From an uncultured Sphaerochaeta sp. (GTDB lineage: Bacteria > Spirochaetota > Spirochaetia > Sphaerochaetales > Sphaerochaetaceae), in the NCBI RefSeq assembly GCF_963676285.1, contig NZ_OY781063.1:992001-1056000 (forward strand): a stretch of 64,000 bases of DNA, in the 5' to 3' direction. The translations under genes were made by a program, and so were the position numbers. Of this stretch, positions 11,313-30,167 are shown in pieces. A model generated the notes under the pieces. That model ran no database searches. It saw only the letters and a list, made by a program, of their open reading frames with translations, and was not told the origin of the DNA. Every line of letters starts with the position of its first letter. The first letter of the stretch is position 1.

Positions 11313-11417
11313 GAAAAATGCATCTGTAAAGGAAAATTTTTACTTTTTTTCATATTTGTATATATTTCCTTATATATGTATCATTTATGACAATTTTTCC
11401 AATCATTAATTTTATAT

Positions 11418-11427: not shown

Positions 11428-11451
11428 ATTTTACTTGCATCATACCCGTAA

Positions 11452-11468
11452 AACTTGTATTATAAGTT
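11452..11468. promoter_or_regulatory. Candidate autoregulatory operator of the FadR-type gene
   Basis: AACTTGTA-T-TATAAGTT is a near-perfect inverted repeat ending 18 bp before the start codon. It resembles the repeat at 11297-11312 on the dctP side of the same intergenic region. Confidence 0.5.
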
Positions 11469-11486
11469 AAAAGAGAGGTAGGGAAA

Positions 11487-12215: not shown

Positions 12216-12222
12216 ATGAGAT

Positions 12223-12348
12223 TCACTCAGGTTTCTGTTTATGTTTACCAAGGAAAAGCAGAACCAGGAATATGATCAAGATGACCACAAAGATGGCCAG
12301 CATTCCTTGTCCCATCAATGTCAGGGATTTTGAAAAGATTGACTGCAT
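12223..12348 (-). CDS. Small membrane protein resembling the gamma subunit (OadG) of sodium-pump decarboxylases
   Basis: A 41-residue protein: a short N-terminal segment, MGQGM, one hydrophobic helix (residues 14-34) and a basic tail KHKQKPE. The pattern (helix preceded by GxGM, followed by a charged tail) resembles OadG/MmdD-type subunits, though it is shorter than usual. AGGAGGAGG sits directly upstream of the ATG, which fixes the start. It lies 10 bp behind the OadB-like gene, so the two should be co-translated. Function by association: stabilising the beta subunit. Confidence 0.65.
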   Translation of the reverse strand: MQSIFSKSLTLMGQGMLAIFVVILIIFLVLLFLGKHKQKPE

Positions 12349-12358
12349 ATGCCTCCTC

Positions 12359-13495: not shown

Positions 13496-13520
13496 AGAGA
13501 ACCTCCGGGGAAAAAGAATA

Positions 13521-13562
13521 GGGGGAGAAGTTGACTTCGCACAATGGCAATGAAGCTCCCCC
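13521..13562 (-). promoter_or_regulatory. Terminator-like hairpin in the oadB leader (possible attenuator)
   Basis: On the minus strand GGGGGAG pairs with CTCCCCC around a 28-base region that can fold internally (CTTC/GAAG), and TATTCTTTTT follows directly. It lies 26 bp upstream of the oadB start, before the ribosome site. No minus-strand gene ends just upstream (the next gene is divergent), so it would act within the leader as an attenuator. Confidence 0.55.
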
Positions 13563-13601
13563 AACGTTGTTAATCATAGAGGGCTTATAGTCCGAGGTCA
13601 A

Positions 13602-14489: not shown

Positions 14490-14568
14490 GCTCGTACCTA
14501 AAATAACACAGATTCCAGGTTGCATGCTTACCACAATGACTTAGAATAGTAATGAGGAGAAGCAGACA

Positions 14569-15600
14569 ATGAAAGCACTGGTACTGGAAGAAAAAGGACG
14601 ACTGAGCGTACGTGATTATCCCATTGTAGAGCACATGGGCCCCTATGATGTAACCGTTGATGTTAAAGCATGCGGCATTTGTGGTAGTGACGTCCACTAC
14701 TACACAGAAGGAGCCATCGGGGATTTCGTCGTCAAGGAACCGATGATACTCGGCCACGAGGCTGCAGGTGTCGTGGTTGCCAAGGGTGAGCAAGTAACAA
14801 ACCTAGAAATAGGAGACTTGGTCTGTATGGAACCCGGTGTTCCCAACCTTCAAGCGAAACAAGTATTGGAAGGCAACTATCACCTCGACCCGGATATCTC
14901 TTTCTGGGCTACCCCGCCCATCCATGGCTGCTTGCGTGAGCAGGTCGTACATCCCTCCCGTTTCTGTTTCAAGTTACCCAAAGGAGTGAGCGTACAGGAG
15001 GGTGCCATGATGGAACCTTTGGCAACAGGTATTGAGGCAGCAAAGAAGGCCCAGGTAACTCCAGGGGACACTGCCCTGGTGGTAGGTGCTGGGACCATTG
15101 GCATTATGGTTGCGATCTCCTGCCTTGCTGCCGGATGCTCCAAGGTATTCATCAGCGATGTAAAAGAGGAGAAGCTAGCCATTGCAGCTTCCTATAAGAA
15201 TATCATCCCCATCAATGTGGCAAACCAGGATCTACAGACAACCATCATGGCTGAAACAAACAATGAAGGGGTAGATCGCCTCTTTGAAGCCTCAGGCAGC
15301 CCAAGGGTCTATCCATCTTTCTTCCGATGCGCCAAACGCGGTGCTACAGTGGTACTGGTAGGTATGATGAACGGAACTGTTCCTCTTGATGTTGCTTTAC
15401 TGCAGGTTCGTGGACTCCGTATTGAGACGCTCTTTCGCTACACGAACACTTTTGACAGGGCAGTAGCCTTGGTGGCAAATGGTTCTATTGATGTAAACCC
15501 CCTGATCTCCAAAGTATTTCCCTTTGAAAAGGCAGTGGAAGCCTACGAGTATGCAGCCGAGGGGCATCAGGATGTAGTGAAGGTGATGATTGAGTTGTAA
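14569..15600 (+). CDS. Zinc-dependent medium-chain dehydrogenase (xylitol/L-iditol dehydrogenase type)
   Basis: A 343-residue MDR polyol dehydrogenase: catalytic zinc ligands in [10 protein letters not shown] and GHEAAG, Rossmann motif [11 protein letters not shown]. The [10 protein letters not shown] stretch is typical of the sorbitol/xylitol group, which interconverts polyols and ketoses with NAD. The structural-zinc cysteine cluster is not in its usual four-Cys form (a single [15 protein letters not shown] loop replaces it), as in many xylitol dehydrogenases. GAGGAG lies nine bases before the ATG. It differs strongly from the MDR enzyme at 7162-8190. It may serve the sugar module to the right, but the next operon is convergent. 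Confidence 0.87.
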
Positions 15601-15667: not shown

Positions 15668-16585
15668 TTATTTCGAGGCTTCAGCAAATAAAGCGATTTT
15701 TGCAAAAAAATCCTCGAGAATAAGTCTAGAATCAATACGCCTATATACTCTAATCGGTCTGTTTAAAGGTGTATGGATGTACTGCATATCAGATCCAAAT
15801 AAGGGTGCAGGTACCCAGTCATACTCAAAACGATCCTCATACAGTAGCACTCCAATTGTAGGAGAGTCTCCCAGAACCCAGGACTCACCACTTCTGAACG
15901 AATTATTTCTTGCCTCTGGCTCCTGAGCGTATTCGTTGAGTTGTTCAAACAAGTATCTACCAATCTCACCTTTCCAATACACTTTCTGTTCCAACTCTGC
16001 CAATGATACAACAGCACGTTCAAATACATTCTGGGGTATCTGCCAAACAGGAATCTGGGATGCAAAGATTACATTTGCTGCATGGATATCATTCTTTAGA
16101 TTAAATTCAGGACCACCAGCTGGATACTTGGCACCTCCAATCCAAATAGCAGTCAAACGATTTGCAATCCTAGGTTCCTGGAGATATGCACTTGCCAAAT
16201 CAGTAATTGGACCTAAAAACAATACATAGAGTGGTCTAGGATCATCTTTCATTGCTTCTTCGATAATAAGAGAAGCTCCTTCACTCGGGATAATCTCTTC
16301 CTTGGTCTGCATTGGACAAGAGGCACCACGAAAGATAAGATCGGTATGATCAATCTGCATCTTATCGAACACACGTTTTAGTTCCTCATAACCTCGCTCC
16401 ATACTGTCTGTGTGCCGATCGACCCCGTAGTGTGCACTAATAAAGCCTACATTCTCAAATTTTGGACTTAATGCAGCATGCACTATTGCAAACTGGTCAT
16501 CAGCCTCATTTTTTGCATCGGTATTGGTAATTACCCTAATAATTTTCTCTTCTGGAACTCGAAAAGCATATTTGGTATAGCGCAT
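15668..16585 (-). CDS. Nucleoside-hydrolase-like protein in a glycoside operon
   Basis: A 305-residue protein of the nucleoside hydrolase superfamily, whose members cleave N-ribofuranosides using a calcium-bound water. The N-terminal metal motif is present as NTDAKNEADDQFA (residues 21-33), two residues longer than the classical DxDxGxDD spacing and with Asn for the first Asp. LFLGPITDLASAY and the GGAKYPAGGPEFNLKNDIHAA region match the family core. It has no signal peptide and is last in an operon with a sugar ABC transporter and two glycosidases (28 bp after GH3), so a glycoside, perhaps a furanoside, may be its substrate instead of a nucleoside. Confidence 0.78.
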   Translation of the reverse strand: MRYTKYAFRVPEEKIIRVITNTDAKNEADDQFAIVHAALSPKFENVGFISAHYGVDRHTDSMERGYEELKRVFDKMQIDHTDLIFRGASCPMQTKEEIIPSEGASLIIEEAMKDDPRPLYVLFLGPITDLASAYLQEPRIANRLTAIWIGGAKYPAGGPEFNLKNDIHAANVIFASQIPVWQIPQNVFERAVVSLAELEQKVYWKGEIGRYLFEQLNEYAQEPEARNNSFRSGESWVLGDSPTIGVLLYEDRFEYDWVPAPLFGSDMQYIHTPLNRPIRVYRRIDSRLILEDFFAKIALFAEASK

Positions 16586-16613
16586 CAGTCACTCCTTATT
16601 ACATCAGATAATT

Positions 16614-18860
16614 TCATACTCTTGTATTCAATGCTTTAAGCAACTCTTCTGCCATTGAATCTGAGAACTTTCCATTAGACCAAGTCACTAAATGTCGAAC
16701 AGGCATTGCTTTAACCATTTCCCACATCATTTTCCCACTTTCTCCCGTCAAATCGAAGGGAAGTAAATCAAATGCAGGTTGTAAAAGGGCTTTAGCTTTG
16801 GGATGGGTAAGTAATTGTGAAACCATTGAGTTCAGGGTGAATAACGCAATATTCTCAGAACTTTGGTGCATAGAAATCTTATGCGACACCGATAGATTAT
16901 CTGAACTGTTTCCAATCCTAATAAGATATTCTCCTTCCTCAACTATCCATTGTTTTAATTCTTCATCAAAATATGAGAAATCCTTTCCATCCAGGACAAA
17001 TGTAATAATTTCAGATGCTCCCGGTTTGAGAGACACTTTCTGGAATCCTCGTAACTGTAGACATGGTTTGGAAACTTTTCCTTTAGGAGGGGTTACGTAT
17101 ACCTGAACCACTTCCCTTCCGTCACAATCCCCACAGTTTATAACTCGAACCTGCACTATTACTACATCTCGCTCAGTACAAGCTGAATGAGAACATGAAA
17201 GCATTTCTATTGAGAATCTCGTATAGGAAAGCCCGAACCCGAAAGGAAATAATATAGGCATTTTTCTAGAAGTATAATAACGATAACCGACAAAGACATC
17301 TTCCGCATAAACAACGGTATCCCCACTTCGCTGGGGCTCCAGATAAGATGGAGTGTCCTCAACCCTAAGCGGGAAAGTTTCAGCAAGTTTACCACTGGGA
17401 CTCACGATTCCATACAGGATATCTGCAACTGCTGCACCACCTGCCTGCCCTGCAAGATAAGCTTCAAGGACTCCCTTTACTTCATGAACCCAAGGAAGCT
17501 CTACAGGAGAACCATTACTCAATACCACAACAATATTGGGATGCTCAGCAGCCAACTTTCTGATCAGTTCATTTTGGTTTTCAGGCAACCTTAGGTGTTC
17601 ACGGTCATAAGCCTCAGACTCCCACTCTTCAGGGAGCCCTGCAAAAATTACTACAGTTTCTGACTGCTTACTTTTTCCAAGAACTTCTTGCTCCAAAGCT
17701 TCATCGCATATCTCAGATTCAATCGAGAATCCTTGTATATATGAAACCTTTCCCAAATGTTGCATAGAAGAAAAAGCATCAGACAATTCGGTTGGAATAA
17801 TGTGGGAACTTCCTCCCCCTTGGTATCTAGGGTTTTTCGCAAATGGACCCACAACCAATACTTGTTTAGTAGGGTCCAAAGGGAGCACTGCTTCTTGGTT
17901 TTTCAGCAATACCATACACTGGGAAGCAACATCTTTTGCCAGCTGATGATGAGCTTCTAGATCATACGTGGCATCCTTATCGAGGTTCTCACATGCCCTA
18001 TCGACTAAACGGAGTATGCGCGTTACGACACGGTCCAAATCTTTCTCATTCAATAGACCTTTCTGAACAGCTTGCACAATCTTTTGATCATTAAGCCCTT
18101 CATTGCCTGGCATTTCAAGATCTTCACCAACCTCTATGCCAGCTACTCTGTCATGATTTGCACCCCAATCCGTCATTACCAAACCCGAGAATCCCCACTC
18201 TTCTCTCAATATGTCATTGAGTAGAAAGGGATGTTCTGAGGCATAGATACCATTGACCTTATTGTAGGAACTCATCACAGTCCAAGGCTTTGCTTGCTTG
18301 ACTGCCCTTTCAAACGATGCCAGATATATTTCCCGCAAGGCTCTCTCAGTTATCCGTGCATCCACAGTAAATCGATGAAACTCCTGATTGTTTGCAGCGA
18401 AATGCTTGATACAGGCACCCACACCATTACTCTGCAACCCATTGATATATGAAGCAGCTAATGCAGAAGAAAGAAATGGATCCTCTGAGTAATATTCAAA
18501 ATTCCTTCCACATAAAGGAAATCTCTTGATATTTACGGCTGGTCCTAGCAATACAGAAACTTGGGCTGATCTACATTCTTCACCGAGAGCACATCCTACA
18601 GTATATAACAATTCTGTATCCCAAGATGAGGCTAAACAGGAACCAGTAGGAAAGCAGGTAGCAGGCAAGCAATCGGTTACCGATACTTGCTCTGACTGTT
18701 CAACTTGCTTACGCAAACCGTGTGGTCCATCTGCTACCATGATCGAAGGAATTCCTAAACGTTCGATCGGCTTGGTATGCCAGAAATCCACCCCTGAGCA
18801 TAGTGAGGCCTTCTCTTCCAACGTAAGCTTTTCCAACATCGATTCATACTTCCCAATCAC
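16614..18860 (-). CDS. Glycoside hydrolase family 3 (beta-glucosidase/beta-xylosidase type)
   Basis: A 748-residue cytoplasmic GH3 enzyme: N-terminal barrel with the nucleophile Asp231 in GLVMTDWGAN, the KHFAANNQE and ARITERALREIYL segments lining the pocket, then the alpha/beta sandwich (VVIFAGLPEEWESE..., GGAAVADILYG) and a C-terminal fibronectin-like domain (GREVVQVYV...KPGASEI). Start is GTG 18860 with GAGGAG seven bases upstream; a longer frame to 18977 would overlap the previous gene by over 100 bases. There is no signal peptide, so it should cleave a glycoside after import by the upstream ABC transporter. Aryl beta-glucosides, xylosides or arabinosides are all possible. Confidence 0.92.
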   Translation of the reverse strand: MIGKYESMLEKLTLEEKASLCSGVDFWHTKPIERLGIPSIMVADGPHGLRKQVEQSEQVSVTDCLPATCFPTGSCLASSWDTELLYTVGCALGEECRSAQVSVLLGPAVNIKRFPLCGRNFEYYSEDPFLSSALAASYINGLQSNGVGACIKHFAANNQEFHRFTVDARITERALREIYLASFERAVKQAKPWTVMSSYNKVNGIYASEHPFLLNDILREEWGFSGLVMTDWGANHDRVAGIEVGEDLEMPGNEGLNDQKIVQAVQKGLLNEKDLDRVVTRILRLVDRACENLDKDATYDLEAHHQLAKDVASQCMVLLKNQEAVLPLDPTKQVLVVGPFAKNPRYQGGGSSHIIPTELSDAFSSMQHLGKVSYIQGFSIESEICDEALEQEVLGKSKQSETVVIFAGLPEEWESEAYDREHLRLPENQNELIRKLAAEHPNIVVVLSNGSPVELPWVHEVKGVLEAYLAGQAGGAAVADILYGIVSPSGKLAETFPLRVEDTPSYLEPQRSGDTVVYAEDVFVGYRYYTSRKMPILFPFGFGLSYTRFSIEMLSCSHSACTERDVVIVQVRVINCGDCDGREVVQVYVTPPKGKVSKPCLQLRGFQKVSLKPGASEIITFVLDGKDFSYFDEELKQWIVEEGEYLIRIGNSSDNLSVSHKISMHQSSENIALFTLNSMVSQLLTHPKAKALLQPAFDLLPFDLTGESGKMMWEMVKAMPVRHLVTWSNGKFSDSMAEELLKALNTRV

Positions 18861-18870
18861 TGAAATCTCC

Positions 18871-20406
18871 TCATACCTTTGTAATACGAATCGCCATGTA
18901 CTCCCTACCAGGAAGTTCAACCTTGAATTTTCCTTTAAATTCCCCTCGCTTTTCAATCTGCATGTTCCAGGTATCAATGACCTCCACGTTCATTACAGTC
19001 TCGTCATCGAAGTGAAACTCACGGAAAGAAGGTCTATTGAATCCGTAGTAAATGAGATAGTAATCTTGAACTGCTTTTATCTCGGTTTCCTTGGTATCAC
19101 AGACGGCACATACCTCATCCCACCCCATTTGATAGGGTTTCAGACCAAGAGAAGGGACAGCTTTCATAATATCTGTAAGGAAAGCAATTCGGGCAGGACT
19201 TTCTCCCTTCAAGACTCCTCCGTGTGACCACCAGAGAATTCTTTCAGTATCTAAATAGGTTTCCCCATGACCACCATACCCACCACGACATGCAGCCTCC
19301 CAGAATCGGCGCACAAGCTCTTTGCCACTTAGATTGCCCCAGCCATGTTGTACATTGCCTTCATATCCAATTTCGTCAAGTACGACAGGTTTCTGGAACC
19401 TTTCACGCCAATCACCGACATACTCCGCAGATTTATAAACATCTTGCCTTTGGATGCTACAATGCGTTATCCATGGCTTGGTATGGTCATAGAATGGCTT
19501 ACAGTTGTGAATAGAACGCAGATGATTGTATGGATCAAGGTTACAAATCAAGGAAGCGTATCGTTCCCAATCCTCAAGTGTCTTTTCAAAAAGAAGATCA
19601 TATTCATTTGCAAGAGACCACCATACGTTTCTGAAAGCAGAAAAACGAGCAAGCACATATTTCCAATATAAATCATCCTGCTCTTCACTCATCATACTGA
19701 ATCCCCAGCGGTCATAGGGGTGCATTACGATGATATCTGCTTCAATACCTATCTCTTGGAGAGCAAGTATCGATTTTTCAATATGTTGGAAATGTTCAAC
19801 ATTGAACCGTGAAAAGTCCCACTCATTCCCGTCCGCTCTTCCATTGTAATTATTAAAATTATCACTATTGAGTACCGAACTATCACAAGGCGTCCCCTCA
19901 TACGGATATGATCTTGGCTCATGAAGATTGTAGTCATAGTGCTTTGGGAATACACAGAATCTAATTTTGTTAAAGGCACTTGTTTTCAGAGTCTCTAAGG
20001 TTTGTTTTTGTAGAGCTTCATTTTGCAGCTCCCACACATAACATGTTGTCCCAATTGGATAGTAAGTGGTCCCATCTTCATAGGCAAAATGATAAGTGTT
20101 AGCTACCTTAACCGGACCATGATTCTCTCTCGATGCAGGAGTTACCTCAAAAGAGCCTTCAAATTGTTCCGAGGAAAAGGTCCCTTCAATCATAAAGTTA
20201 TATGCTTCTGCAAATGAAGGCATAAATCGCACGATATAGGTACCGTCTCCATCATAGAAACCAGACACTCGCTTGGTTTCATTTTTACTGGAGAAGGTTC
20301 CCCAGATAGAATAATCGGTAAAAGGATTCCCTTTTGTCTCTCCACTCATAGTCACTTCAATAAATGACCACCGCTCTACTTTCTTAACATAGCTACAACG
20401 TTGCAT
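18871..20406 (-). CDS. Clan-A-like glycoside hydrolase with DUF5060/DUF4038/DUF5605-type architecture
   Basis: A 511-residue cytoplasmic protein. Residues 10-100 form a beta-rich N-terminal domain (DUF5060-like). Residues 105-430 form a TIM barrel: YPIGTTCYVW, then WWSLANEYD with candidate acid/base Glu268, and VVLDEIGYEG with candidate nucleophile Glu345. The C-terminal beta domain has the IYYGFNRPSF stretch. GH140 apiosidases are founded on a DUF4038 catalytic domain, so a related furanosidase activity is possible but unproven. AAGGAG precedes the ATG. It lies between the permease genes and GH3, arguing that both hydrolases act on the same imported glycoside. Confidence 0.8.
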   Translation of the reverse strand: MQRCSYVKKVERWSFIEVTMSGETKGNPFTDYSIWGTFSSKNETKRVSGFYDGDGTYIVRFMPSFAEAYNFMIEGTFSSEQFEGSFEVTPASRENHGPVKVANTYHFAYEDGTTYYPIGTTCYVWELQNEALQKQTLETLKTSAFNKIRFCVFPKHYDYNLHEPRSYPYEGTPCDSSVLNSDNFNNYNGRADGNEWDFSRFNVEHFQHIEKSILALQEIGIEADIIVMHPYDRWGFSMMSEEQDDLYWKYVLARFSAFRNVWWSLANEYDLLFEKTLEDWERYASLICNLDPYNHLRSIHNCKPFYDHTKPWITHCSIQRQDVYKSAEYVGDWRERFQKPVVLDEIGYEGNVQHGWGNLSGKELVRRFWEAACRGGYGGHGETYLDTERILWWSHGGVLKGESPARIAFLTDIMKAVPSLGLKPYQMGWDEVCAVCDTKETEIKAVQDYYLIYYGFNRPSFREFHFDDETVMNVEVIDTWNMQIEKRGEFKGKFKVELPGREYMAIRITKV

Positions 20407-20421
20407 GCACGACTCCTTTCT

Positions 20422-21267
20422 TTATGCTTTCAGCGCACCTGACATACCCTCGACAAAGTGTCGTTGGAAGATCAGATACACTATCAATACGGGGATGACA
20501 GAGATTAAAACACCAGCACAAAGCAATCCATAGTCTGTGCCATGCTCCCCAACAAATGTCATCAGTCCAACAGGAACTGTTTTTTTTGCATTGTCATTAA
20601 TAATGACACTAGCCAAGAGATACTCGTTCCATGTAGCCAAAAAGTCTACAATGACCAAGGTTGCAATGGCAGGCTTTGCCATGGGGAGAATGATTCTTAA
20701 AAAGATTTGCCATTTAGAACAACCCTCTACTACTGCTGCTTCATCCATCTCCTTGGGAATGCCACGAAAGAATCCACGGAGAATTAAAATTCCATAGGAG
20801 ATGCCAAAACCGATATACACGTAGAACAGCCCAAAGTAGGTGTTTAATAGGTTCAACTTGTTATAAATTACATTTATAGGTACCAATGCAATCTGGAACG
20901 GAAGCATCATACCAACCAGGAAAAATATGAATATCCCTGTAGCATGCTTTAGACGTAAACGAGTCAGCGCATAGGCAGCCATTGCTTCAATAAATATTCC
21001 AAGGGGGACTTTCAAACAAGAAATGATCAAATCATTTTTCATATAGGTCAGTAGTCGACCACGAATCAATGCTTCGGAAAAGTTCTTCCAAGCAAACTGC
21101 TCTGGTAGAGCAAAGAGGCTGAGACCACTGTAGAATTCTTTTTTACCTTTGATTGATGTTAAAACCAAGGTGATCATCGGCGCAATCCAGAACAGTGCAA
21201 GGATAAGCAGAATCGTATAGAACAGAGCCAAAAATAAGTGTTTTTGTTGTTTTCCAGCTAATACCAT
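20422..21267 (-). CDS. Carbohydrate ABC transporter permease, MalG type
   Basis: A 281-residue inner-membrane permease with six helices. The EAA loop that docks the ATPase is seen as EMDEAAVVEGCSKWQIFLRIILPMAKPA. The N-terminal arm (LFALPEQFAWKNFSEA) is typical of MalG/AraQ-type proteins. It follows the MalF-type gene by 18 bp. There is no ATPase gene in the operon, so it probably shares a general MsmK/UgpC-like ATPase encoded elsewhere. Confidence 0.93.
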   Translation of the reverse strand: MVLAGKQQKHLFLALFYTILLILALFWIAPMITLVLTSIKGKKEFYSGLSLFALPEQFAWKNFSEALIRGRLLTYMKNDLIISCLKVPLGIFIEAMAAYALTRLRLKHATGIFIFFLVGMMLPFQIALVPINVIYNKLNLLNTYFGLFYVYIGFGISYGILILRGFFRGIPKEMDEAAVVEGCSKWQIFLRIILPMAKPAIATLVIVDFLATWNEYLLASVIINDNAKKTVPVGLMTFVGEHGTDYGLLCAGVLISVIPVLIVYLIFQRHFVEGMSGALKA

Positions 21268-21285
21268 CGTTGTATTCTCCTTTGC

Positions 21286-22155
21286 TCACTGTTCTTTTGC
21301 GGTAAATGAGATATACGGAACGATAATGAATAGCATTATCAGTACCATAATGCAGGCTACGGTTGTTCCCATCCCCACATTGTTATATCTGAATGATTGT
21401 GAATACATGTATGTTGACAGCATTTCAGTGGAGTTATTTGGACCACCTGCCGTCAAACCCATTACGATATCAAATACTTTCATTCCAGCAATAATAAGCG
21501 TTGCAAAAACGATAATGAATGTCTCACGCATATAGGGAATCGTAATATGAATAAACCGCTTAACAGCTCCAGCACCATCAATTGTAGCAGCCTCCAAGGC
21601 ATCCACACTTACCGTCTGTAAGCCTGCGAGAAATAGAATCATGGACTGGCCTACAACTGCCCAAAGGTTAGCTGCAAAAATTGCATAGAGGCTTGTTTTG
21701 GGATTAGAGAGCCATGTTTGAAAGAAATCTGCCCCAAGAGATTGGGCAAACTGATTGATAAACCCAAAATTGGGTTCATACATCCATCGCCAAATTATGG
21801 AAACAGCTATTGGGGCAATCACTGATGGAAAATAGAAGAATCCTCGAAAAAAAGTTCTCCCATGAAATTTCTTATTCAATATCACTGCAAGCATAAGAGC
21901 AACGGTCATTGTGAGAAGCAGTGTTAGCACAATCCATATAAGATTGTTTTTAATACTGATCATAAATATTGGGTCATTGGTGAACAGGGTTTTGTAGTTC
22001 CCAAACCCAACGAATTTCATATCACGAATCCCATTCCACTCAAATAAGCTGATAAAAAATGAATAGAATACAGGGATGACGATAACGGAAAGATACACTA
22101 TCAAAGCAGGCAGCAGAAATCCAATTGCGCCCCAATCTCTTCGTTTTGTAACCAT
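21286..22155 (-). CDS. Carbohydrate ABC transporter permease, MalF/UgpA type
   Basis: A 289-residue, six-helix permease. The EAA loop is DALEAATIDGAGAVKRFIHITIPYMRE, and the N-terminus (FLLPALIVYLSVIVIPVFYSFFISLFEWNG) is characteristic of UgpA/MsmF-type subunits. It pairs with the downstream MalG-type permease. GGAG precedes the ATG, and a ten-base-pair hairpin separates it from the binding-protein gene upstream. Confidence 0.93.
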   Translation of the reverse strand: MVTKRRDWGAIGFLLPALIVYLSVIVIPVFYSFFISLFEWNGIRDMKFVGFGNYKTLFTNDPIFMISIKNNLIWIVLTLLLTMTVALMLAVILNKKFHGRTFFRGFFYFPSVIAPIAVSIIWRWMYEPNFGFINQFAQSLGADFFQTWLSNPKTSLYAIFAANLWAVVGQSMILFLAGLQTVSVDALEAATIDGAGAVKRFIHITIPYMRETFIIVFATLIIAGMKVFDIVMGLTAGGPNNSTEMLSTYMYSQSFRYNNVGMGTTVACIMVLIMLFIIVPYISFTAKEQ

Positions 22156-22180
22156 AGAAATGCTCCAGTATTTGATATGG

Positions 22181-22206
22181 GGAGGGTAGCATTACTGCTA
22201 CCCTCC
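22181..22206 (-). promoter_or_regulatory. Intercistronic hairpin between sugar-binding-protein and permease genes
   Basis: GGAGGGTAGC-ATTACT-GCTACCCTCC is a perfect ten-base-pair stem. On the minus (coding) strand no T tract follows, so it should not stop the operon fully; stabilising the binding-protein message is the likely role, as with the malE-malF intercistronic repeats. Confidence 0.75.
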
Positions 22207-22230
22207 TCTTTTTGGTAGACCTTAGATACC

Positions 22231-23490
22231 TTACTTACTAGTATAATCTTCGATCGCTTTCTGGATAGCTGCAGCACCTGCTTCAGGAGTCATCTGTCCA
22301 TAAGCAATTGCATCCTGCACTCTGAAAAGGACATCTGCTACCTGAGTCGGGAATGCCTGGTCAGTAATAGTGAATGTGCTGTTCTCTGAAGACATCTTCA
22401 GCATCTTTTCGACATTAGGCTGCCCAGCAGGCATGTCTGCACCCTGCTTCGGAAGGGGCATGTTGTAATATTTGGCGTAACGATTAGCAACTTCTTCGCT
22501 GTAATAGTAATCCATGAACTTGATGCCTGCTTCCATCTCCTCAGGGGTATTGTTAGCATTGAACTGAGTCATCTCAGCAAATGCTGACATGCGGTTTGTT
22601 CCACCTGAAGGGAATGCGAAGGTGCCATAGTTTGTAATATCTTGCTCTTCTTGCAAGATGTTTCCATCATACCATTGTCCTTGAATATCCATTGCTGCAC
22701 GCCCACTGAAGATAGCCATCATGGTGTCATTAGGATCGATAGTGACAAACCCTTCTGGGAAGTACCCCTTGTCTACAAATTCCTTGTACTTGGTTAGTGC
22801 CTTTACTACAGCTTCATTATTGTATGACGCGGTAAAGGTATTCATCTGATCGTGGAGTTCTGCGCCTGCATAATGCTCAATCAACAACTCAACGAAACGC
22901 ATTACGTGCCAACCATACTTACCTGCGGTAGAAATTGGGATAATTCCGTTTGCCTTGAGTGTTGCACAAGCTTTTTCGAACTCTTCAAATGTCTTGGGAA
23001 TTGCAATGCCATTCTCCTTGAAGGTATCTTTGCGATAGTACACACCAAGAACGTTGTAACTGGTTGGATAACCGGTCAATTCGCCGTTACGCGTACAGAG
23101 AGCAAGTGCACCTTCATTGAAGGTATTATACCAATTGTACTTCTCTGCATACTCACTCAAGTCATATGTAAGATTATTGTCAGAATAGAATCCACCGAGT
23201 GAACCTCCCCAATTGAACCACATGTTTGGAAGTGTTTTAGAAGAAGCAGCAACCTTACATGCATCCTTGATGCCATCAGTATCATAGAATGCAGGAACCA
23301 CTTCAATAGTCGGGTTCAGTTTGTTAAATTCCTCAACAATCGGTTCAACAGCATCCTGCCTTGAACTCAATGTCCAGAAAGTCACCTGAGTCTTATCGCT
23401 GGAAGCTTTCTCTTCTGCACCTGCGGCGGAGAGAGACGAAACGCCCACCAAGGAAAGAATCATCAAAATCACTAACATCGTTTTTTTCAT
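22231..23490 (-). CDS. ABC transporter sugar-binding protein, family 1
   Basis: A 419-residue extracytoplasmic solute-binding protein of the MalE/UgpB type. Residues 1-24 are a signal peptide ending SLSAAGAEEKA without a lipobox cysteine. The mature start QVTFWTLSSRQDAVEPIVEEFNKLNP is typical of family 1, as is GRAAMDIQGQWYDGNI in the middle. It heads the operon leading to two permeases, two glycosidases and the nucleoside-hydrolase-like gene. A TTGATA/TACGAT promoter with 17 bp spacing precedes it. The ligand is likely an oligosaccharide or aryl glycoside. Confidence 0.93.
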   Translation of the reverse strand: MKKTMLVILMILSLVGVSSLSAAGAEEKASSDKTQVTFWTLSSRQDAVEPIVEEFNKLNPTIEVVPAFYDTDGIKDACKVAASSKTLPNMWFNWGGSLGGFYSDNNLTYDLSEYAEKYNWYNTFNEGALALCTRNGELTGYPTSYNVLGVYYRKDTFKENGIAIPKTFEEFEKACATLKANGIIPISTAGKYGWHVMRFVELLIEHYAGAELHDQMNTFTASYNNEAVVKALTKYKEFVDKGYFPEGFVTIDPNDTMMAIFSGRAAMDIQGQWYDGNILQEEQDITNYGTFAFPSGGTNRMSAFAEMTQFNANNTPEEMEAGIKFMDYYYSEEVANRYAKYYNMPLPKQGADMPAGQPNVEKMLKMSSENSTFTITDQAFPTQVADVLFRVQDAIAYGQMTPEAGAAAIQKAIEDYTSK

Positions 23491-23542
23491 GGAATATATC
23501 CTCCTATTGATATACTCCTATCGTATAACGGAATTTTCGATT

Positions 23543-23564
23543 TATCAAGAATAACTTTCTTTTA
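23543..23564 (-). promoter_or_regulatory. -35 box of the ABC/glycosidase operon with adjacent shared motif TAAAAGAAAGT
   Basis: On the minus strand TAAAAGAAAGT (23564-23554) is followed five bases later by TTGATA (-35), 17 bases and TACGAT (-10). The same 11-mer, in the same orientation relative to transcription, occurs upstream of the plus-strand isomerase operon at 24636-24646. Purine-rich repeats are usual targets of DeoR-family regulators, and a DeoR gene lies between the two sites. Confidence 0.45.
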
Positions 23565-23686
23565 CTTACACTTATTTTTCTTTGGTAATATTTCAAATTA
23601 GATAGAACATGTAAGCATAGAGAAATAGAGCTCTTCATTCCTGCACGGAAAGAAAAGCTCATCAATTTTGTACATTATGGTGATAA

Positions 23687-24448
23687 TTAAGCAATTATGG
23701 TATGGATACCTGCTTCTTCTAATCGCTTGCAATACTCTTTGGAAATGCCCGAATCAGTAATTAGATAGTCTATTCTTTCCTCAGATCCCAAGGAAGCAAA
23801 CAATACTTTTTCCAGCTTACTTGAGTCCGCTAAAAGATATACAGTCTTTGCTGAGGCTATCATTGCACGCTTAAGAGCGATGTCGCTGAACCCTGGATAT
23901 GTCAATCCAGCTTCCAAGGAGAACCCACCGGTAGCAAGAAATAATTTTTCCACATAAAGATCGGTAAGTGTTGCTAAGCCCTTCTCTCCAGTAAGAGAAA
24001 GTGTAGGCGGCTTGAACTCCCCACCTATCACCAACACACTATTTGTTGGTTCCATTCCTAGTTGCATGGCAATATTGAGTGCATTGGTAACAATATTCAG
24101 ATTCTTTCGATTCATAAGATGTCGGGACATTTCTGTAACAGTGGATCCTGAGTCTAAAATAATATTATCCCCATCCTTAACAAACTGCGCTGCCTTTTTC
24201 CCTATTCTCTCTTTTTCCTCTTCGTGTCCACGATTAGGTAATGTAAACATTTGAGAGCAAGGAGATATTGTGTTTATATATGCTCCACCATGCTGCCTGG
24301 TGATGTGATTTGATTTCTCGAGTGCTTCTAAATCCTGACGGATTGTGGGCTCAGAGACGCTAAACAATTCTTTTAATTCCTTGACCCTGCAACTACCGTT
24401 TTCCTGTAGTAGTTGTAAAATCTTCTCTCGTCTCTGCTCTTGAAACAT
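23687..24448 (-). CDS. DeoR-family transcriptional regulator
   Basis: A 253-residue sugar-phosphate-responsive regulator. N-terminal DeoR helix-turn-helix (QEQRREKILQLLQENGSC..., VSEPTIRQDLEALEKSNHITRQHGGA) at residues 1-60; C-terminal DeoRC effector domain with IILDSGSTVTEM, NIVTNALNIA and VYLLADSSKL, the ribose-5-phosphate-isomerase-like phosphate-binding loops. The start at 24448 has GAGG five bases upstream; a frame to 24481 is rejected. It lies between the glycoside-uptake operon and the divergent isomerase/transketolase/kinase operon, whose promoters share an 11-base motif, so it probably represses both until a phosphorylated ketose appears. Confidence 0.9.
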   Translation of the reverse strand: MFQEQRREKILQLLQENGSCRVKELKELFSVSEPTIRQDLEALEKSNHITRQHGGAYINTISPCSQMFTLPNRGHEEEKERIGKKAAQFVKDGDNIILDSGSTVTEMSRHLMNRKNLNIVTNALNIAMQLGMEPTNSVLVIGGEFKPPTLSLTGEKGLATLTDLYVEKLFLATGGFSLEAGLTYPGFSDIALKRAMIASAKTVYLLADSSKLEKVLFASLGSEERIDYLITDSGISKEYCKRLEEAGIHTIIA

Positions 24449-24635
24449 TGCAACCTCGTATTTCTCAAAATTAGTTATCATAATAGCCTATTACAACTAA
24501 AAAGGGAAGAATCCATATTTAATGCAAAGAAGAAGGAACACAGAATTGAATATTCCTCGATTGGCATTCCACTTTCTTCCGTAATTATATCATAAATTCG
24601 TAATTTTCCCATAATAAATGCAAATCAAATGAAAA

Positions 24636-24692
24636 TAAAAGAAAGTATATGAAGTTTTATTCCTTGACTTACAAAACAGACTGTCGTACTCT
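24636..24692 (+). promoter_or_regulatory. Promoter region of the isomerase-transketolase-kinase operon
   Basis: TAAAAGAAAGT at 24636-24646 repeats the motif beside the ABC operon promoter. TTGACT (24664-24669), a 17-base spacer and TACTCT (24687-24692) form a plausible sigma-70 promoter about 35 bp before the start codon. The rest of 24449-24635 is AT-rich with no gene visible. Confidence 0.45.
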
Positions 24693-24727
24693 GCATATAT
24701 ACTTTTCATATGATAAAGGAGCGCATC

Positions 24728-26149
24728 ATGCCAACCATCAGATTAGGGTATGCACCCACCCGCAGAAGTATCTTCAGTGCACCGGATGCCATTAAATATC
24801 GTAACCTCACTCGAGATCGACTTGTCGAGCTCGGTATCGAATTCGTCGACATTACCGACATCAACGAGGAAGGGCTCCTCTACGATGACAAGGATATGGT
24901 AAAAATCCTGGAGAAATTCAAAGCTGAGAAGGTGGATGGGCTCTTCCTCCCCCACTGCAACTTCGGCACTGAGTATGTCTCAGCACGTCTTGCAAAGGAG
25001 CTGGGTGTACCTGTTCTCCTCTGGGGCCCGCTTGATGAGCGACCAGAGCCCAATGGAGAGAGACTCAGGGATACACAATGCGGTCTCTTTGCAACAGGCA
25101 AAGTCCTTAGACGGTTCAGGGTACCTTTTACCTACATGACCAACTGCAGGCTTAATGACCCAGTCTTCGAGAGAGGCATTCGGGACTTCCTTGCTGTCTG
25201 CAATACGGTCAAGACCTTCAAGTCCATCAGGATTCTCCAGATTTCCACCCGTCCCTACGACTTCATGACCACCATGTGCAATGAAGGGGAACTACTCGAG
25301 CGGTTCAACGTACAGCTAGCCCCTATCCCAATGCCTGAGTTGATAGAAACGGTCAAGAAATGCAAAGCGGAGGAGAAGAAAGCAGTAGCAGAGGTCATTT
25401 CCTATGTTAAGGAATCGATGATCATCAAGGTTACTGAGGAACAGCTGGAAACAGTGGCCGCCCTTAAGGTGGCAATGGCCAAGCTGAGAGAGCAGTATGG
25501 ATGCAATGCAGTTGCCATCCAGTGCTGGAATGCCCTTCAGGGAGAGCTTGGCATCATGCCCTGTGCTGCCAACGCCTTGCTTAACGATGAAGGTGTACCT
25601 GTGGTTTGCGAGACAGACATCCATGGCGCAATAACCGCTCTCTTGGTGGAAGCAGCCGGCATGGACGAGAGCCGTTCCTTCTTCGCTGATTGGACCATCC
25701 GTCACCCCGACATCCCCAACGGAGAGCTCTTGCAACACTGCGGACCGTGGCCAGTATCAATAGCAAAAGAAAAGCCCGTCCTGGGTTACCCGCTTGCATT
25801 TGATCATCCTGGAAGCCTTACTGCAGAAGCAAAGGGAGGCAATTTGACTCTTTGCCGCTTTGACGGAGACAACGGAGAGTACTCACTGTTGCTCGGAAAC
25901 GCAAAAGGCACCTCTGGTCCCAAGGGCATGGGAACCTATCTCTGGATTGAGGTGGACAACATCAAACGACTGGAAGAGAAGATTGTCACAGGTCCCTACA
26001 TCCACCACTGTGTCGGTATTCATCAGAATATCGTTCCCATCCTCTATGAAGCTTGCAAGTACATTGGGATCAAGGCTGATTTCTATGATCCAATTGAGGA
26101 AGACGTACAGGCCTATCTCCGTGGGGAAGATGTCCCCAGCATGCAGTAA
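24728..26149 (+). CDS. L-fucose/D-arabinose isomerase-like sugar isomerase
   Basis: A 473-residue member of the fucose isomerase fold, which converts aldoses to ketoses with a divalent metal. The metal-ligand motif CETDIHGA (Glu295, Asp297) matches the E...D pair of FucI/AraA-type enzymes, and a C-terminal histidine is available in GPYIHHCVGIHQN. It is shorter than FucI (about 590 residues), as in several functionally diverse isomerase-like groups. The ATG at 24728 has AAGGAG six bases upstream. First gene of an operon with a two-chain transketolase and an FGGY kinase: isomerise, phosphorylate, then cut by two-carbon transfer. An apiose isomerase role is conceivable, not shown. Confidence 0.82.
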   Translation: MPTIRLGYAPTRRSIFSAPDAIKYRNLTRDRLVELGIEFVDITDINEEGLLYDDKDMVKILEKFKAEKVDGLFLPHCNFGTEYVSARLAKELGVPVLLWGPLDERPEPNGERLRDTQCGLFATGKVLRRFRVPFTYMTNCRLNDPVFERGIRDFLAVCNTVKTFKSIRILQISTRPYDFMTTMCNEGELLERFNVQLAPIPMPELIETVKKCKAEEKKAVAEVISYVKESMIIKVTEEQLETVAALKVAMAKLREQYGCNAVAIQCWNALQGELGIMPCAANALLNDEGVPVVCETDIHGAITALLVEAAGMDESRSFFADWTIRHPDIPNGELLQHCGPWPVSIAKEKPVLGYPLAFDHPGSLTAEAKGGNLTLCRFDGDNGEYSLLLGNAKGTSGPKGMGTYLWIEVDNIKRLEEKIVTGPYIHHCVGIHQNIVPILYEACKYIGIKADFYDPIEEDVQAYLRGEDVPSMQ

Positions 26150-26161
26150 AAGAGGATGGTA

Positions 26162-26995
26162 ATGACAATACAAGAGCTCAAACAACAAGCACTCGACATC
26201 CGAAAATCCTTGCTTTCCATGATTTACCAAGCGAAAACAGGGCATACCGGTGGCGCTCTCAGCTCCACCGATGTGATCACAGCACTCTACTTCGAAGTCA
26301 TGAATATCGATCCCTCCAACCCCAAGTGGGAGGGAAGGGATTACTTCATCCTCTCCAAGGGTCATAGTGTGGAAGGATACCTATCGGCACTCGCCAAGCG
26401 TGGGTTCTTTGATGAGAGCCTGCTCTCCACCTTCTGCCAATACAAGAGTCCGCTTATTGGGCATCCAAACAACAAGATTCCAGGGATTGAGATGAACACC
26501 GGGGCTCTGGGTCATGGTCTTTCTATTTCCGTAGGCATGGCGATCGGATTAAAGAAGGATAGCAAGCCAAACAGGGTGTTCACGCTTATGGGTGACGGAG
26601 AACTGGCCGAAGGATCGGTATGGGAAGCTGCAATGGCAGCAAGCCACTACAAGCTGGATAACCTGGTTGCAATCATTGACAGGAATCACCTGCAGATATC
26701 AGGTTCGACCGAAGACGTCATGGGCTTGGAACCACTTACCCAACGCTGGGATAGCTTTGGTTGGGAAGTGAAGGAGATTGATGGGAACTCCATGACCGAG
26801 GTAGTGAATACGCTCAAGGCTGCGCCGTTCAAGGAGAATAAACCCTCTCTTATCATAGCCCATACCACAAAAGGAAAAGGGGTCAAGGAGATGGAGGATA
26901 TCCCCTCCTGGCACCATGGGGTTCCAAACCAGAACCTCTATGAGCAAGCCATGATCGACTTTGAATCCATGGAGAAGGAGCTACAGAATGTCTAA
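26162..26995 (+). CDS. Transketolase, N-terminal subunit (split enzyme, copy 2)
   Basis: A 277-residue thiamine-diphosphate subunit: GHTGGALSSTDVITALYF, FILSKGHSVEGY, and the ThDP/Mg motif GDGELAEGSVWEA followed by IIDRNHLQISGST. GAGG is spaced six bases from the ATG at 26162, preferred over the ATG two codons upstream. It overlaps the next gene by 8 bp. Only moderately similar to the GC-rich copy at 6201-7049, so the two are separate acquisitions or old paralogues. The AptA/AptB apulose-4-phosphate transketolase is also a two-chain enzyme encoded beside an isomerase and a kinase. Confidence 0.9.
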   Translation: MTIQELKQQALDIRKSLLSMIYQAKTGHTGGALSSTDVITALYFEVMNIDPSNPKWEGRDYFILSKGHSVEGYLSALAKRGFFDESLLSTFCQYKSPLIGHPNNKIPGIEMNTGALGHGLSISVGMAIGLKKDSKPNRVFTLMGDGELAEGSVWEAAMAASHYKLDNLVAIIDRNHLQISGSTEDVMGLEPLTQRWDSFGWEVKEIDGNSMTEVVNTLKAAPFKENKPSLIIAHTTKGKGVKEMEDIPSWHHGVPNQNLYEQAMIDFESMEKELQNV

Positions 26996-27944
26996 TTATC
27001 GTGCCTGCAGGGAGGCTTACACCACTGCTCTACTCGCCCTCGCCAAGGAAGACCCCTCGATCATCGTCATAAGCAGTGATGCTCGTGGATCATGTTCCTT
27101 GAATACGTTCGTCGAGACCTTACCCAACCAATTCGTCGAGATCGGTATCGCCGAGCAGAATGAGATTGGTGTGGCGGCAGGCCTCTCGGTAGTTGGCAAG
27201 AATCCATTTGTATGTGCACCTGCTTGCTTCCTGACAGCAAGAAGTCTCGAACAACTGAAAGTTGATGTAGCCTATTCCCACCAGAATGTGAAGGTGCTGG
27301 GAGTGAGCGGAGGAGTGAGCTACGGGGCCCTCGGTTCCAGCCATCACACCCTGCATGATATAGCAACGCTACGTTGTATCCCAGAACTTACCATTATCCT
27401 CCCCAGCGATGCTGTGCAAACTGAAGAGGTTGTGAGGGCAATCGCGCAAGAGAAGGGAGCTTTCTTCATCAGGATAGGAAGAGAGAAAATTCCCCAGATC
27501 TACACAGAGGAGTTGGGAGTGAAGCCCTTTACCTTGGGAAAAGCCAACACCTTACGTGAAGGAAAATCCGTTACCCTGGTTAGCTGTGGAGAACTTGTCT
27601 ACCATACCCTTGAGGCAGCGAAGCTCCTCAGTGATGAGGGTATAGAGGCCAGGGTTCTCGACATAGCTACCCTTAAACCGTTCGATGAAGAGGCAATCAT
27701 CAAGGCTGCCAAGGAGACTGGTGCACTGGTGACGGTTGAAGAACATAGTATCAATGGAGGACTGGGAGCAACAGTCAGTCAGATTGTCTGTGCCCATCAT
27801 CCAGTACCGGTGAAAACCCTTGCCTTCCCAGATGAATATCTGGTCACAGGAAACAGCCTTGAGCTGTTTGCCCATTATGGCCTCGATGCCAAGGGCATTG
27901 CGGCCTCCACAAAGACTTTCATTTCCCAGGTGAGCACCCTATGA
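26988..27944 (+). CDS. Transketolase, C-terminal subunit (split enzyme, copy 2)
   Basis: A 318-residue partner with the catalytic glutamate in IGIAEQNEIGVAAGLSVVG and a C-terminal regulatory-like domain (LVTVEEHSINGGLGATVSQI). The ATG at 26988 is preceded by AAGGAG and overlaps the end of the N-terminal subunit gene; the longer frame from 26961 is not needed. Its stop overlaps the kinase start as ATGA, so all three enzymes should be made in step. Confidence 0.9.
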   Translation: MSNYRACREAYTTALLALAKEDPSIIVISSDARGSCSLNTFVETLPNQFVEIGIAEQNEIGVAAGLSVVGKNPFVCAPACFLTARSLEQLKVDVAYSHQNVKVLGVSGGVSYGALGSSHHTLHDIATLRCIPELTIILPSDAVQTEEVVRAIAQEKGAFFIRIGREKIPQIYTEELGVKPFTLGKANTLREGKSVTLVSCGELVYHTLEAAKLLSDEGIEARVLDIATLKPFDEEAIIKAAKETGALVTVEEHSINGGLGATVSQIVCAHHPVPVKTLAFPDEYLVTGNSLELFAHYGLDAKGIAASTKTFISQVSTL

Positions 27945-29407
27945 GTGAACAATTCATCCTTGCATTCGACCAAAGCACATCAACCACGAAAGCCCTGCTT
28001 TTCGACCAGAAGGGAGCTTTAAGAGGACGTTCAGATGTCCCCCACCGCCAGATCATCAATGACCAGGGCTGGGTGGAACATGATGCTGAGCAGATTATCA
28101 AGAATCTCTTTACTGCTGCAAAGAACCTGTTGGAGAGTACAAGAGTAGACCGCTCCCTTATAAAGGCCGTGGCCATCTCCAATCAACGGGAGACTGCTGT
28201 TGCCTGGGATAGAAACAGTGGAAAACCTTTCTACCATGCCATTGTCTGGCAATGCGGGAGGGCCAAGGACATCTGTGCGGCTCTGGAAAAAGACAAAGAG
28301 GAAATTCATAAGAGAACCGGCCTTCATCTTTCCCCCTACTTCAGCGCTGCCAAGTTTGCCTGGATGCTCCAAAACGTCAAGGCAGTGAAAGAGGCAGCCC
28401 AAGAAGGGACATTGGTGCTCTCTACCATGGACAGCTATGTTCTCTATCACCTGAGCAAGGAAAAAGTAGTGCGAAGTGAATACTCCAATGCTTCTCGCAC
28501 ACAGCTACTGAATATCACCGATCTTACCTGGGATGAGAAGGTGGCCTCACTCTTTGGCATCCCAACAGAAAGCCTTCCCGAACTGTGTGACTCAAACGCT
28601 CTTTTCGGACATACCGACCTAGGGGGCTTATTGCCAGAGGAAGTTCCCATACATGCAATGCTTGGGGACTCACAAGGAGCGCTCTATGCACAAGGGTGTC
28701 ATTTCAATGGCATGACCAAAGCCACCTATGGTACAGGATCCTCCATCATGATGAACATCGGGGAAAAACCGGTACTCTGTGAGGACCTTGTCACCAGCCT
28801 TGCCTGGGGGATTGATGGAAAGGTCACCTATGTCCTGGAAGGGAACATCAACTACAGCGGAGCAACAATCTCCTACCTGGTTGAGGATCTTGAGCTTATC
28901 GGCTCTGCTAAGGAAGCGGGAATATTGGCTGGGCAAGCCAAGGACATTGAAGGGCTCTACATGGTGCCAGCCTTTAGCGGCTTAGGGGCACCGTACTGGG
29001 ATCCTGAAGCGAGAGCAGTAATTGTTGGATTGGACAGGCGGTGCAAGAAAGCGGAACTGGTCAAGGCAGCAGAAGAATCGATAGCCTACCAAATTGCAGA
29101 TATCGTCTTCCTGATGCACAAACATGCAAAGCAAGATATTACCAGCCTCCGGGTTGATGGAGGTCCTACCAACGATTCATTCCTCATGCAGGCACAGAGT
29201 GACATCATCGGCTGCGAGGTTCGCGTTGCCGCATTGGAGGAATTGAGTGGACAGGGACCTGCCCTCATCGCTGCAAAGGCAGTAGGCATTCTGGAAGAGG
29301 AGCAACTCCCAGCAAAAGCACTCTATCAACCAATGATGAGCGATACAGAGAGAGAGAAACGGTATAAAGGATGGAAGAAAGCAGTCAGTAAAGCTTTGTC
29401 ATCCTAA
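27941..29407 (+). CDS. FGGY-family carbohydrate kinase, glycerol-kinase-like
   Basis: A 488-residue ATP-dependent sugar kinase. N-terminal phosphate loop FILAFDQSTSTTKALLF; the polyol-binding Arg-Glu in ISNQRETAVAW; IVWQCGRAKDIC and LGDSQGALYAQG (catalytic Asp) follow the glycerol kinase pattern with DSQ where GlpK has DQQ. The adenosine loop is ATYGTGSSIMMNIG and the C-terminal signature GGPTNDSFLMQAQSDIIG. Gene order (isomerase, transketolase, kinase) points to a ketose, for example an unusual tetrulose, pentulose or apulose, not glycerol. ATGA overlap with the transketolase gene. Confidence 0.85.
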   Translation: MSEQFILAFDQSTSTTKALLFDQKGALRGRSDVPHRQIINDQGWVEHDAEQIIKNLFTAAKNLLESTRVDRSLIKAVAISNQRETAVAWDRNSGKPFYHAIVWQCGRAKDICAALEKDKEEIHKRTGLHLSPYFSAAKFAWMLQNVKAVKEAAQEGTLVLSTMDSYVLYHLSKEKVVRSEYSNASRTQLLNITDLTWDEKVASLFGIPTESLPELCDSNALFGHTDLGGLLPEEVPIHAMLGDSQGALYAQGCHFNGMTKATYGTGSSIMMNIGEKPVLCEDLVTSLAWGIDGKVTYVLEGNINYSGATISYLVEDLELIGSAKEAGILAGQAKDIEGLYMVPAFSGLGAPYWDPEARAVIVGLDRRCKKAELVKAAEESIAYQIADIVFLMHKHAKQDITSLRVDGGPTNDSFLMQAQSDIIGCEVRVAALEELSGQGPALIAAKAVGILEEEQLPAKALYQPMMSDTEREKRYKGWKKAVSKALSS

Positions 29408-30081
29408 AGCTCCAACAGAGTTTTCTCCCCGAAAACAGCTTTCCAATCTCTGGAAAAATCATCAACTGCCTGGCTGATCGAGGGCATCGCCAGTCCGGTT
29501 GAAAGCAACTCTGGACGGACCGTGCACACCCCGGCTCCATTGGCGTAGGCACTGGTAACCTCACTGATGTTCCTGAAACTCGCAGCAAGAACCTGGGTTG
29601 TGCTGGTATTTGTCCAAAGGAACCCGGATAGTTCCTTGATCACGCGTTTTGCGTCGATGTCCAGATTGAGCATCCGATCATAGAATACTGCAATATAGCG
29701 GGCTCCACTGAGCATGGCCAGAATGCCTTGCATGGTGGAAAACACGGTCGTCCCGGTGACAGCAATCCCTTCTGAGGAGAGTTGTTTGATCACCTTCAAG
29801 CCACACTCGGTAACAGGAACGGCAATACAGGTTTTCTCACCAAGCTGAGAGACTAGATAATGGGCCTCCTTGATCATGGTGGACTCATCACAACTCATGA
29901 CCTGGATATGCAAATCCCGCTCTTCCCCGATCATCTCTCTGATACGTCTCAAGTGGGAGAGAACGGCGCCTCCTTCAATGGTGCTGAGCATGGTGGGGTT
30001 GGTGGTTACCCCTTTGATAGGGTAATGCTCCAAAGCATGTGCAATTGCCGAAAGATCGGCGCTATCGAGTAGTAGATCCAT
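29404..30081 (-). CDS. Transaldolase/fructose-6-phosphate-aldolase-like protein lacking the Schiff-base lysine
   Basis: A 225-residue protein of FSA/TalC length with MDLLLDSADL, GVTTNPTML and TGTTVFSTMQGILAMLSGARYIAVF, all typical of the family. In FSA the catalytic lysine lies in VVKVPVT; here the matching stretch is CIAVPVT, so residue 87 is Ala (codon GCC, 29821-29823). Without that lysine normal aldolase chemistry through a Schiff base is not expected. The fold looks otherwise intact, so this may be a regulator, a binding protein or an enzyme with changed chemistry. GAGGAG precedes the ATG at 30081. It is convergent with the kinase gene (stops share four bases) and divergent from an AraC regulator. 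Confidence 0.85.
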   Translation of the reverse strand: MDLLLDSADLSAIAHALEHYPIKGVTTNPTMLSTIEGGAVLSHLRRIREMIGEERDLHIQVMSCDESTMIKEAHYLVSQLGEKTCIAVPVTECGLKVIKQLSSEGIAVTGTTVFSTMQGILAMLSGARYIAVFYDRMLNLDIDAKRVIKELSGFLWTNTSTTQVLAASFRNISEVTSAYANGAGVCTVRPELLSTGLAMPSISQAVDDFSRDWKAVFGEKTLLEL

Positions 30082-30167
30082 ATCTTGGTTTCTCCTCACG
30101 ACAAGTGTGCCATACAAGGATGGTGAGAACAACTATCTAAGCGGTAGTTCTTGACAAAGCCTTCAGG

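Follow-up and report, generated by a model that had tools for sequence, protein, structure and literature searches.

Two divergent operons of an uncultured Sphaerochaeta as a probable locus for the breakdown of apiose-bearing plant glycosides

Background

Which sugar is handled by a locus that sets an importer and glycosidases back to back with a sugar isomerase, a two-chain transketolase and a sugar kinase? The question is raised by a 64,000-nucleotide stretch of DNA (G000:C2:992001-1056000, hereafter the window) within the 3.5-Mb genome of an uncultured Sphaerochaeta species. We consider it likely that its two divergent operons are a single locus under a DeoR-type regulator, which imports an apiose-bearing plant glycoside, frees D-apiose in the cytoplasm and degrades this sugar by a non-oxidative route. 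Identities given below are from protein comparison, and loci used for comparison are numbered L005, L006 and so on.

Results and discussion

Locus and conserved cassette

The list of open reading frames (ORFs) and the domain scans bear out the gene content that an earlier, sequence-only reading of this DNA had proposed. That reading called the operons facing; in fact they diverge from the intergenic region between the DeoR and isomerase genes. Transcription on the minus strand runs from the regulator through a binding protein, two ATP-binding cassette (ABC) permeases, a DUF5060/PF13204/DUF5605 barrel protein and a glycoside hydrolase of family 3 (GH3) to a nucleoside-hydrolase-like protein; the plus strand encodes isomerase, transketolase N chain, transketolase C chain and FGGY kinase, in that order.

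15668..16585, minus strand: nucleoside-hydrolase-like protein, possible furanosidase (PF01156 65 bits, PF07632 30 bits, both above cut-off)
16614..~18860, minus strand: GH3 glycosidase (PF00933, PF01915, PF14310)
18871..20406, minus strand: DUF5060/apiosidase-like barrel/DUF5605 protein (PF18310 98 bits, PF16586 71 bits, PF13204 58 bits)
20422..21267, minus strand: ABC sugar permease (PF00528)
21286..22155, minus strand: ABC sugar permease (by sequence and position in the ORF list; L005 copy 99% identical)
22231..23490, minus strand: extracellular sugar-binding protein (PF13416, PF01547)
23687..24481, minus strand: DeoR-type regulator (PF00455 156 bits, PF08220)
24482..24709, no strand: divergent intergenic region (GAAA repeats, kept in L005-L009 by eye)
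24710..26149, plus strand: isomerase, predicted apiose isomerase (L-arabinose/L-fucose isomerase fold)
26156..26995, plus strand: transketolase N chain, AptA type (47% identical to E. coli AptA; clade support 100/97; LGHG/EGS)
26961..27944, plus strand: transketolase C chain, AptB type (start probably ~26988; 35% identical to E. coli AptB; clade support 100/97)
27941..29407, plus strand: FGGY kinase, AplK type (38% identical to E. coli AplK; tree; Ser/Ser pocket)

The isomerase more likely starts at 24728, where there is a ribosome-binding site and where most homologues begin. The GH3 start is judged from the 748-residue L005 copy, the listed ORF extending to 18977 (TTG), and the best NCBIfam match of this protein reaches 821 bits, below that family's cut-off of 1300. 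Within the minus-strand operon we saw no gene for an importer ATPase. A weak 14-mer match between the intergenic region and the region before the binding-protein gene is equalled in 5 of 150 shuffles, and the case for a shared operator of both operons is weak.

Scanning genome contigs with the isomerase alignment returned at least 589 relatives, from which the best 80 loci (76-99% identical) were kept, chosen by isomerase similarity alone; Louvain clustering of the neighbouring proteins split true families and was replaced by another grouping. Of these 80 loci, 76 yielded an isomerase ORF, 75 a transketolase subunit and 74 a kinase. The plus-strand genes thus occur together beyond chance, as a cassette of isomerase, transketolase pair and kinase that is kept from Spirochaetes to Lachnospiraceae and Selenomonadaceae. 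Listeria also has the four-gene set, with an isomerase 72% identical to that of the window, and in the Sphaerochaetaceae metagenome-assembled genome that holds L005 the locus is 91-99% identical, protein by protein.

Transketolase pair

Among the closest known counterparts of the cassette is the non-oxidative D-apiose cluster of Enterobacterales (E. coli SE15 ECSF_RS02670-02715; also Rahnella and Sodalis), which like the window pairs a two-chain transketolase with a glycerol-kinase-like FGGY kinase, each in one clade with its window equivalent. A passage of PMC13001218 names aplK, aptA and aptB of SE15, the proteins to which the identities listed above refer, by locus tag, and states that the tested cluster-bearing strains grow on D-apiose. 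In a tree of 39 rows, 22 of them drawn from the 78 cassette rows, the window pair and the AptAB pair of the E. coli apiose cluster share a clade (support 100/97). This clade holds 32 of the rows; the seven pairs outside it include two from the window's own genome. The pair had been likened to AptA/AptB from sequence alone, and the likeness withstands comparison with clades of other function.

The motifs agree with this placement. All 78 cassette N chains have LGHG, and LGHG together with EGS is found in 76 of them, in all 10 N chains of the apiose-cluster type and in one of nine others. Six other transketolase matches in the genome have a readable first motif, which is LGQG in four, LGNG in one and LGHG in one (L134); a Pantoea N chain (L100) has both LGHG and EGS despite its place outside the AptAB clade. 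The tree program warns of long branches meeting, among them Caballeronia, Apilactobacillus and Jiella.

A sulfosugar pathway would be one other destination for such a transketolase, and the sole NCBIfam match of the isomerase is sulfoquinovose isomerase SftI (NF048012). That match scores 93.8 bits against a cut-off of 700, and the genome has a separate, probable sulfoquinovose locus, L106 (G000:C2:2426000-2444000, positions 1879-14610), with a YihQ-type GH31 enzyme (929 bits, above cut-off), an SftI-like isomerase (199 bits), a two-chain transketolase, and RpiB, iron alcohol dehydrogenase (Fe-ADH), TauE and DUF4867 proteins. The L106 transketolase pair is not part of the AptAB clade. Given the SftI score and this separate locus, we reject the sulfosugar pathway as extremely improbable.

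Two further transketolase pairs may be recorded here. The window itself holds, at 5266-7088, a second two-chain pair of the ordinary LGQG type, outside the AptAB clade; the score of its N chain (43%, 237.1 bits) recurs unchanged at a second site 7.7 kb away, G000:C2:990461-991282, which suggests a duplication. In Apilactobacillus (L095, 8974-10702), genes named aptA and aptB sit among D-Ala ligase and aminotransferase genes, on a long branch outside the AptAB clade, and their name is doubtful.

Kinase

Because AplK is itself 38-41% identical to many ordinary glycerol kinases (GlpK), the 38% identity of the window kinase to AplK is not decisive on its own. The tree and the substrate pocket say more. 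The window kinase groups with AplK and is split from the four GlpK in the tree at 100/99, in keeping with the sequence-only proposal that a glycerol-kinase-like enzyme here is an apulokinase. At two pocket positions where Gln and Phe would be expected of a GlpK the window kinase has Ser and Ser, as do all 76 cassette kinases and all seven kinases of the apiose-cluster type; Gln/Phe is present in the four other GlpK and the genome's own GlpK, as well as in the five listed chains of solved GlpK. These positions are presumably 246 and 270 of E. coli GlpK, where they contact glycerol. A plain glycerol kinase was therefore rejected, on the pocket residues and on the presence of a separate GlpK in the genome. 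WQC versus WQD was dropped as a marker of the kinase type, E. coli GlpK also having WQC.

The same sugar could be processed in another order, the transketolase cleaving unphosphorylated apulose to dihydroxyacetone and the kinase then phosphorylating dihydroxyacetone. Some glycerol kinases accept that substrate, and the window kinase scores 524 bits as a GlpK and 522 against PRK00047 (cut-off 498). However, the replacement of both GlpK residues by Ser is shared with AplK, an apulose kinase by its published name (PMC13001218), and we regard this order of steps as very improbable.

Isomerase

By sequence the isomerase is elusive: it scores 20 bits against Pfam Fucose_iso_C (cut-off 29.3) and has no match to solved chains under E 0.6. 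Its fold is settled by a predicted structure, which shares the L-arabinose/L-fucose isomerase fold over the whole chain, at 11-15% identity to solved members. All 20 proteins aligned keep E301, D327, H343, H432 and H433, some of which may be metal-site residues; in this superfamily these are Glu, Asp/Glu and His. A gene of the fucose-isomerase type also fills the isomerase slot in the apt clusters of Sodalis, Rahnella and a Klebsiella fragment. These enterobacterial proteins belong to the same broad family as the window's, being 24-27% identical to it (25% for Sodalis) and linked to it by profile (E 7e-28). The sequence-only reading had called a fucose-isomerase-fold enzyme as apiose isomerase notable; the fold stands, and the idea may not be new, since the Sodalis, Rahnella and Klebsiella clusters have such proteins too.

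Close relatives, named L-fucose/L-arabinose isomerase, are 71-99% identical among the 120 matches listed of at least 6148. Isomerases of 45-48% identity occur in seven other spirochaete genomes. We do not count these as members because, in L116 (9005-13620), the genes that come after the isomerase encode a class II aldolase and a melibiase-like protein, with no transketolase nearby; L117 (5786-10513) has ORFs of similar size and order, and the 45% subfamily of these two loci serves a different pathway. Another spirochaete genome (G175; L122, 236-3629) has a 74% identical isomerase, with one internal stop as read, near a 63% identical nucleoside-hydrolase-like gene. In the window's genome, L107 (8137-10419) has a different isomerase, with Fucose_iso_C at 85 bits, adjoining a class II aldolase/adducin-type protein, perhaps a fuculose-type pathway.

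Importer swap in Sphaerochaeta halotolerans

Sphaerochaeta halotolerans (L006) has a plus-strand operon that matches the window's (isomerase 97%, transketolase 93%, kinase 92%), and the genes to either side of the locus match as well (dehydrogenase 94% over 188 residues, fructose-6-phosphate-aldolase-like 87%, AraC-type 96%). Its DeoR regulator shares just 53% identity with the window's, and where the window has its remaining minus-strand genes this species has a binding protein, DUF2291, ATPase and permease. L008 holds such a transporter operon too, with different outer flanks. The aldolase-like gene (window 29404-30132; 229 bits against a cut-off of 214) overlaps the kinase end on the opposite strand and is kept in both L005 and L006.

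Compared with the L006 binding protein, that of the Sodalis cluster is 65% identical and that of Rhizobium etli p42f 72%; the latter lies in an oxidative D-apiose cluster with OiaX, 3-oxo-isoapionate-4-phosphate decarboxylase. The R. etli cluster has the same four-gene transporter as S. halotolerans (permease 59%, ATPase 49%, DUF2291 32% identical); its enzymes differ from the window's, and the window lacks this transporter. Across the 80 loci there are 45 binding proteins of this kind, each sharing 52-72% identity with the R. etli one. The best solved matches of the L006 protein are 5ibq and 4ry0 (annotated as probable ribose-binding), which we take to be the R. etli binding protein with apiose and with ribose. 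The slot opposite the cassette can thus hold either an importer of the apiose-cluster type or the window's importer and glycosidases. The Enterobacterales clusters likewise have a binding protein, DUF2291, ATPase and permease, and a sugar-binding regulator, whereas the window has another type of importer, glycosidases and a DeoR regulator.

The main rival to apiose is a locus for D-ribose or D-arabinose furanosides. Here the isomerase would yield D-ribulose, the kinase D-ribulose 5-phosphate for the transketolase and pentose phosphate pathway, and the nucleoside-hydrolase-like protein, with homologues in 7 of the 80 isomerase loci, would release ribose. Of these loci, 40 have a ribose-type transporter that includes DUF2291 close to the isomerase, 29 have RbsD and 30 ribokinase, the last two of which point to the handling of ribose in the same operons; the binding proteins also resemble ribose-binding 2fn8/2fn9, at a lower score. 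A passage on the T. maritima ribose operon (Rodionov et al. 2013, PMC3750489) fits a system that handles ribose as well; the locus names TM0951-TM0953 were not found in the literature searched. However, where ribokinase is present the operon can already process ribose; the window locus lacks both RbsD and ribokinase, and neither gene could be recognised in L006 or L008. Of the binding proteins compared, that of the oiaX cluster comes closest, transketolase and kinase side with those of the E. coli apiose cluster, and apiosidase-domain proteins are in excess near the cassette (below). In our reading one transporter of the Firmicutes operons serves two pentoses, ribose via ribokinase and apiose via the cassette, and ribose as the sugar of the window locus is distinctly unlikely.

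Barrel protein and apiosidase association

The barrel matches PF13204 at 58 bits (cut-off 26.5), a family wider than GH140, the family of apiosidases such as 8t9w and BT_1012 (5msy). It differs from these in its added DUF5060 and DUF5605 domains. Sequence comparison with solved chains up to E 1 finds only 4n0r (BVU_0362), a putative glycoside hydrolase of Bacteroides vulgatus whose title states no activity, and no solved GH140 chain. In alignment Glu345 coincides with a conserved Glu, whereas Glu268 falls at the Asp of GH140-like proteins; Asp as acid/base and Glu as nucleophile are, we assume, the GH140 catalytic residues. A predicted model of the barrel is of middling quality (predicted local distance difference test, pLDDT, 78.7, from 9 sequences). 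GH140 membership was thus rejected on the search result and on Glu268, and by sequence the barrel is of a different, related family.

PF13204 proteins are nevertheless in marked excess around the cassette: 10 of the 80 loci have one against 0.38 expected (P 1.2e-11), in a test that borrows its density from 37 genomes and treats loci as independent. The excess persists without L005 (P 2.9e-10) and with five times the density (P 1.5e-4). An earlier count of 8 in 37 loci was biased, the loci having been picked with knowledge of their domain status (8 of 10 positives, 29 of 70 others), and the 80-locus count replaces it. The Listeria PF13204 protein matches the solved GH140 apiosidase 8t9w (E 2.5e-25). 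Over 198 Spirochaetota genomes the isomerase occurs in nine, PF13204 in four and both in three (p 2.6e-4); this co-occurrence is weak support because the window's own genome is one of the three and the other two carry the 45% isomerase subfamily (one of them with PF13204 only below cut-off). The excess near the cassette and the importer swap both strengthen the case for apiose beyond what the sequence-only reading could offer.

The two operons might also be mere neighbours, the plus strand serving apiose and the minus strand some different glycoside, for example one of mannose or glucose. The same type of barrel is, however, found near the isomerase in 8 of the 80 loci, directly upstream of it in L011; it also lies beside the kinase in Monoglobus, and the slot carries an apiose-type transporter in S. 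halotolerans; we give this arrangement a low probability.

Several results weigh against apiose, beside the ribose genes noted above. Both the cassette transketolases and the cassette kinases are sister to the proteobacterial AptAB and AplK groups, not inside them, so that a shift of substrate is possible, and the kinase tree includes only four ordinary GlpK. An isomerase of this type is missing from the apiose clusters of E. coli and K. aerogenes. The barrel is nearer to 4n0r and to a GH5 mannanase than to GH140, and 17 of 37 isomerase-bearing genomes lack any PF13204 protein.

Proposed pathway and implications

If the locus serves apiose, the importer would take up an apiosyl glycoside whole, the barrel or the nucleoside-hydrolase-like protein would most likely remove the furanoside, and GH3 would most likely cleave the remaining beta-glucoside. 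Uptake of the whole glycoside and its cleavage here are steps that we infer, since by sequence the barrel is not a GH140 enzyme. The isomerase would then convert D-apiose to D-apulose, the AplK-type kinase D-apulose to apulose 4-phosphate, and the two-chain transketolase apulose 4-phosphate and glyceraldehyde 3-phosphate to intermediates of glycolysis and the pentose phosphate pathway. From the comparisons above, this is likely the known non-oxidative apiose pathway in a variant form: its isomerase belongs to a distinct subfamily, and an operon for glycoside release takes the position of the free-sugar importer. The swap predicts free apiose as the substrate of S. halotolerans and apiosides as those of the window's species. 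Our literature search found no paper that joins apiose, Sphaerochaeta and Spirochaet, although one with apiose and either other term could exist.

A bolder proposal is tentative and, as a whole, somewhat unlikely. The isomerase subfamily, at least 72% identical across the window's spirochaete, gut Firmicutes and Listeria, would act as the apiose isomerase of these bacteria. Two new families of cytoplasmic apiosidases would be represented by the DUF5060-DUF5605 barrel and by a nucleoside-hydrolase-like protein that can occupy the same position in the operon; apiosyl glycosides would be consumed intact by a pathway that the labels fucose, glycerol and ribose have concealed.

If the locus does serve apiose, breakdown of this sugar, with its own isomerase and with release inside the cell, would be widespread in gut Firmicutes and reach spirochaetes and Listeria. 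Well-conserved proteins now named L-fucose/L-arabinose isomerase would gain a function, many 'glycerol kinases' would be renamed, and lmo1031-1036 would be recast as a plant-sugar locus.

That Listeria operon is described, in a passage of PMC3091722, as being for glycerol or fucose. The gene order of L092 (4004-13086) agrees with it: a LacI regulator, isomerase, transketolase pair, kinase, beta-glucoside phosphotransferase system and GH140-like protein, an arrangement that looks like an apiosyl-glucoside locus.

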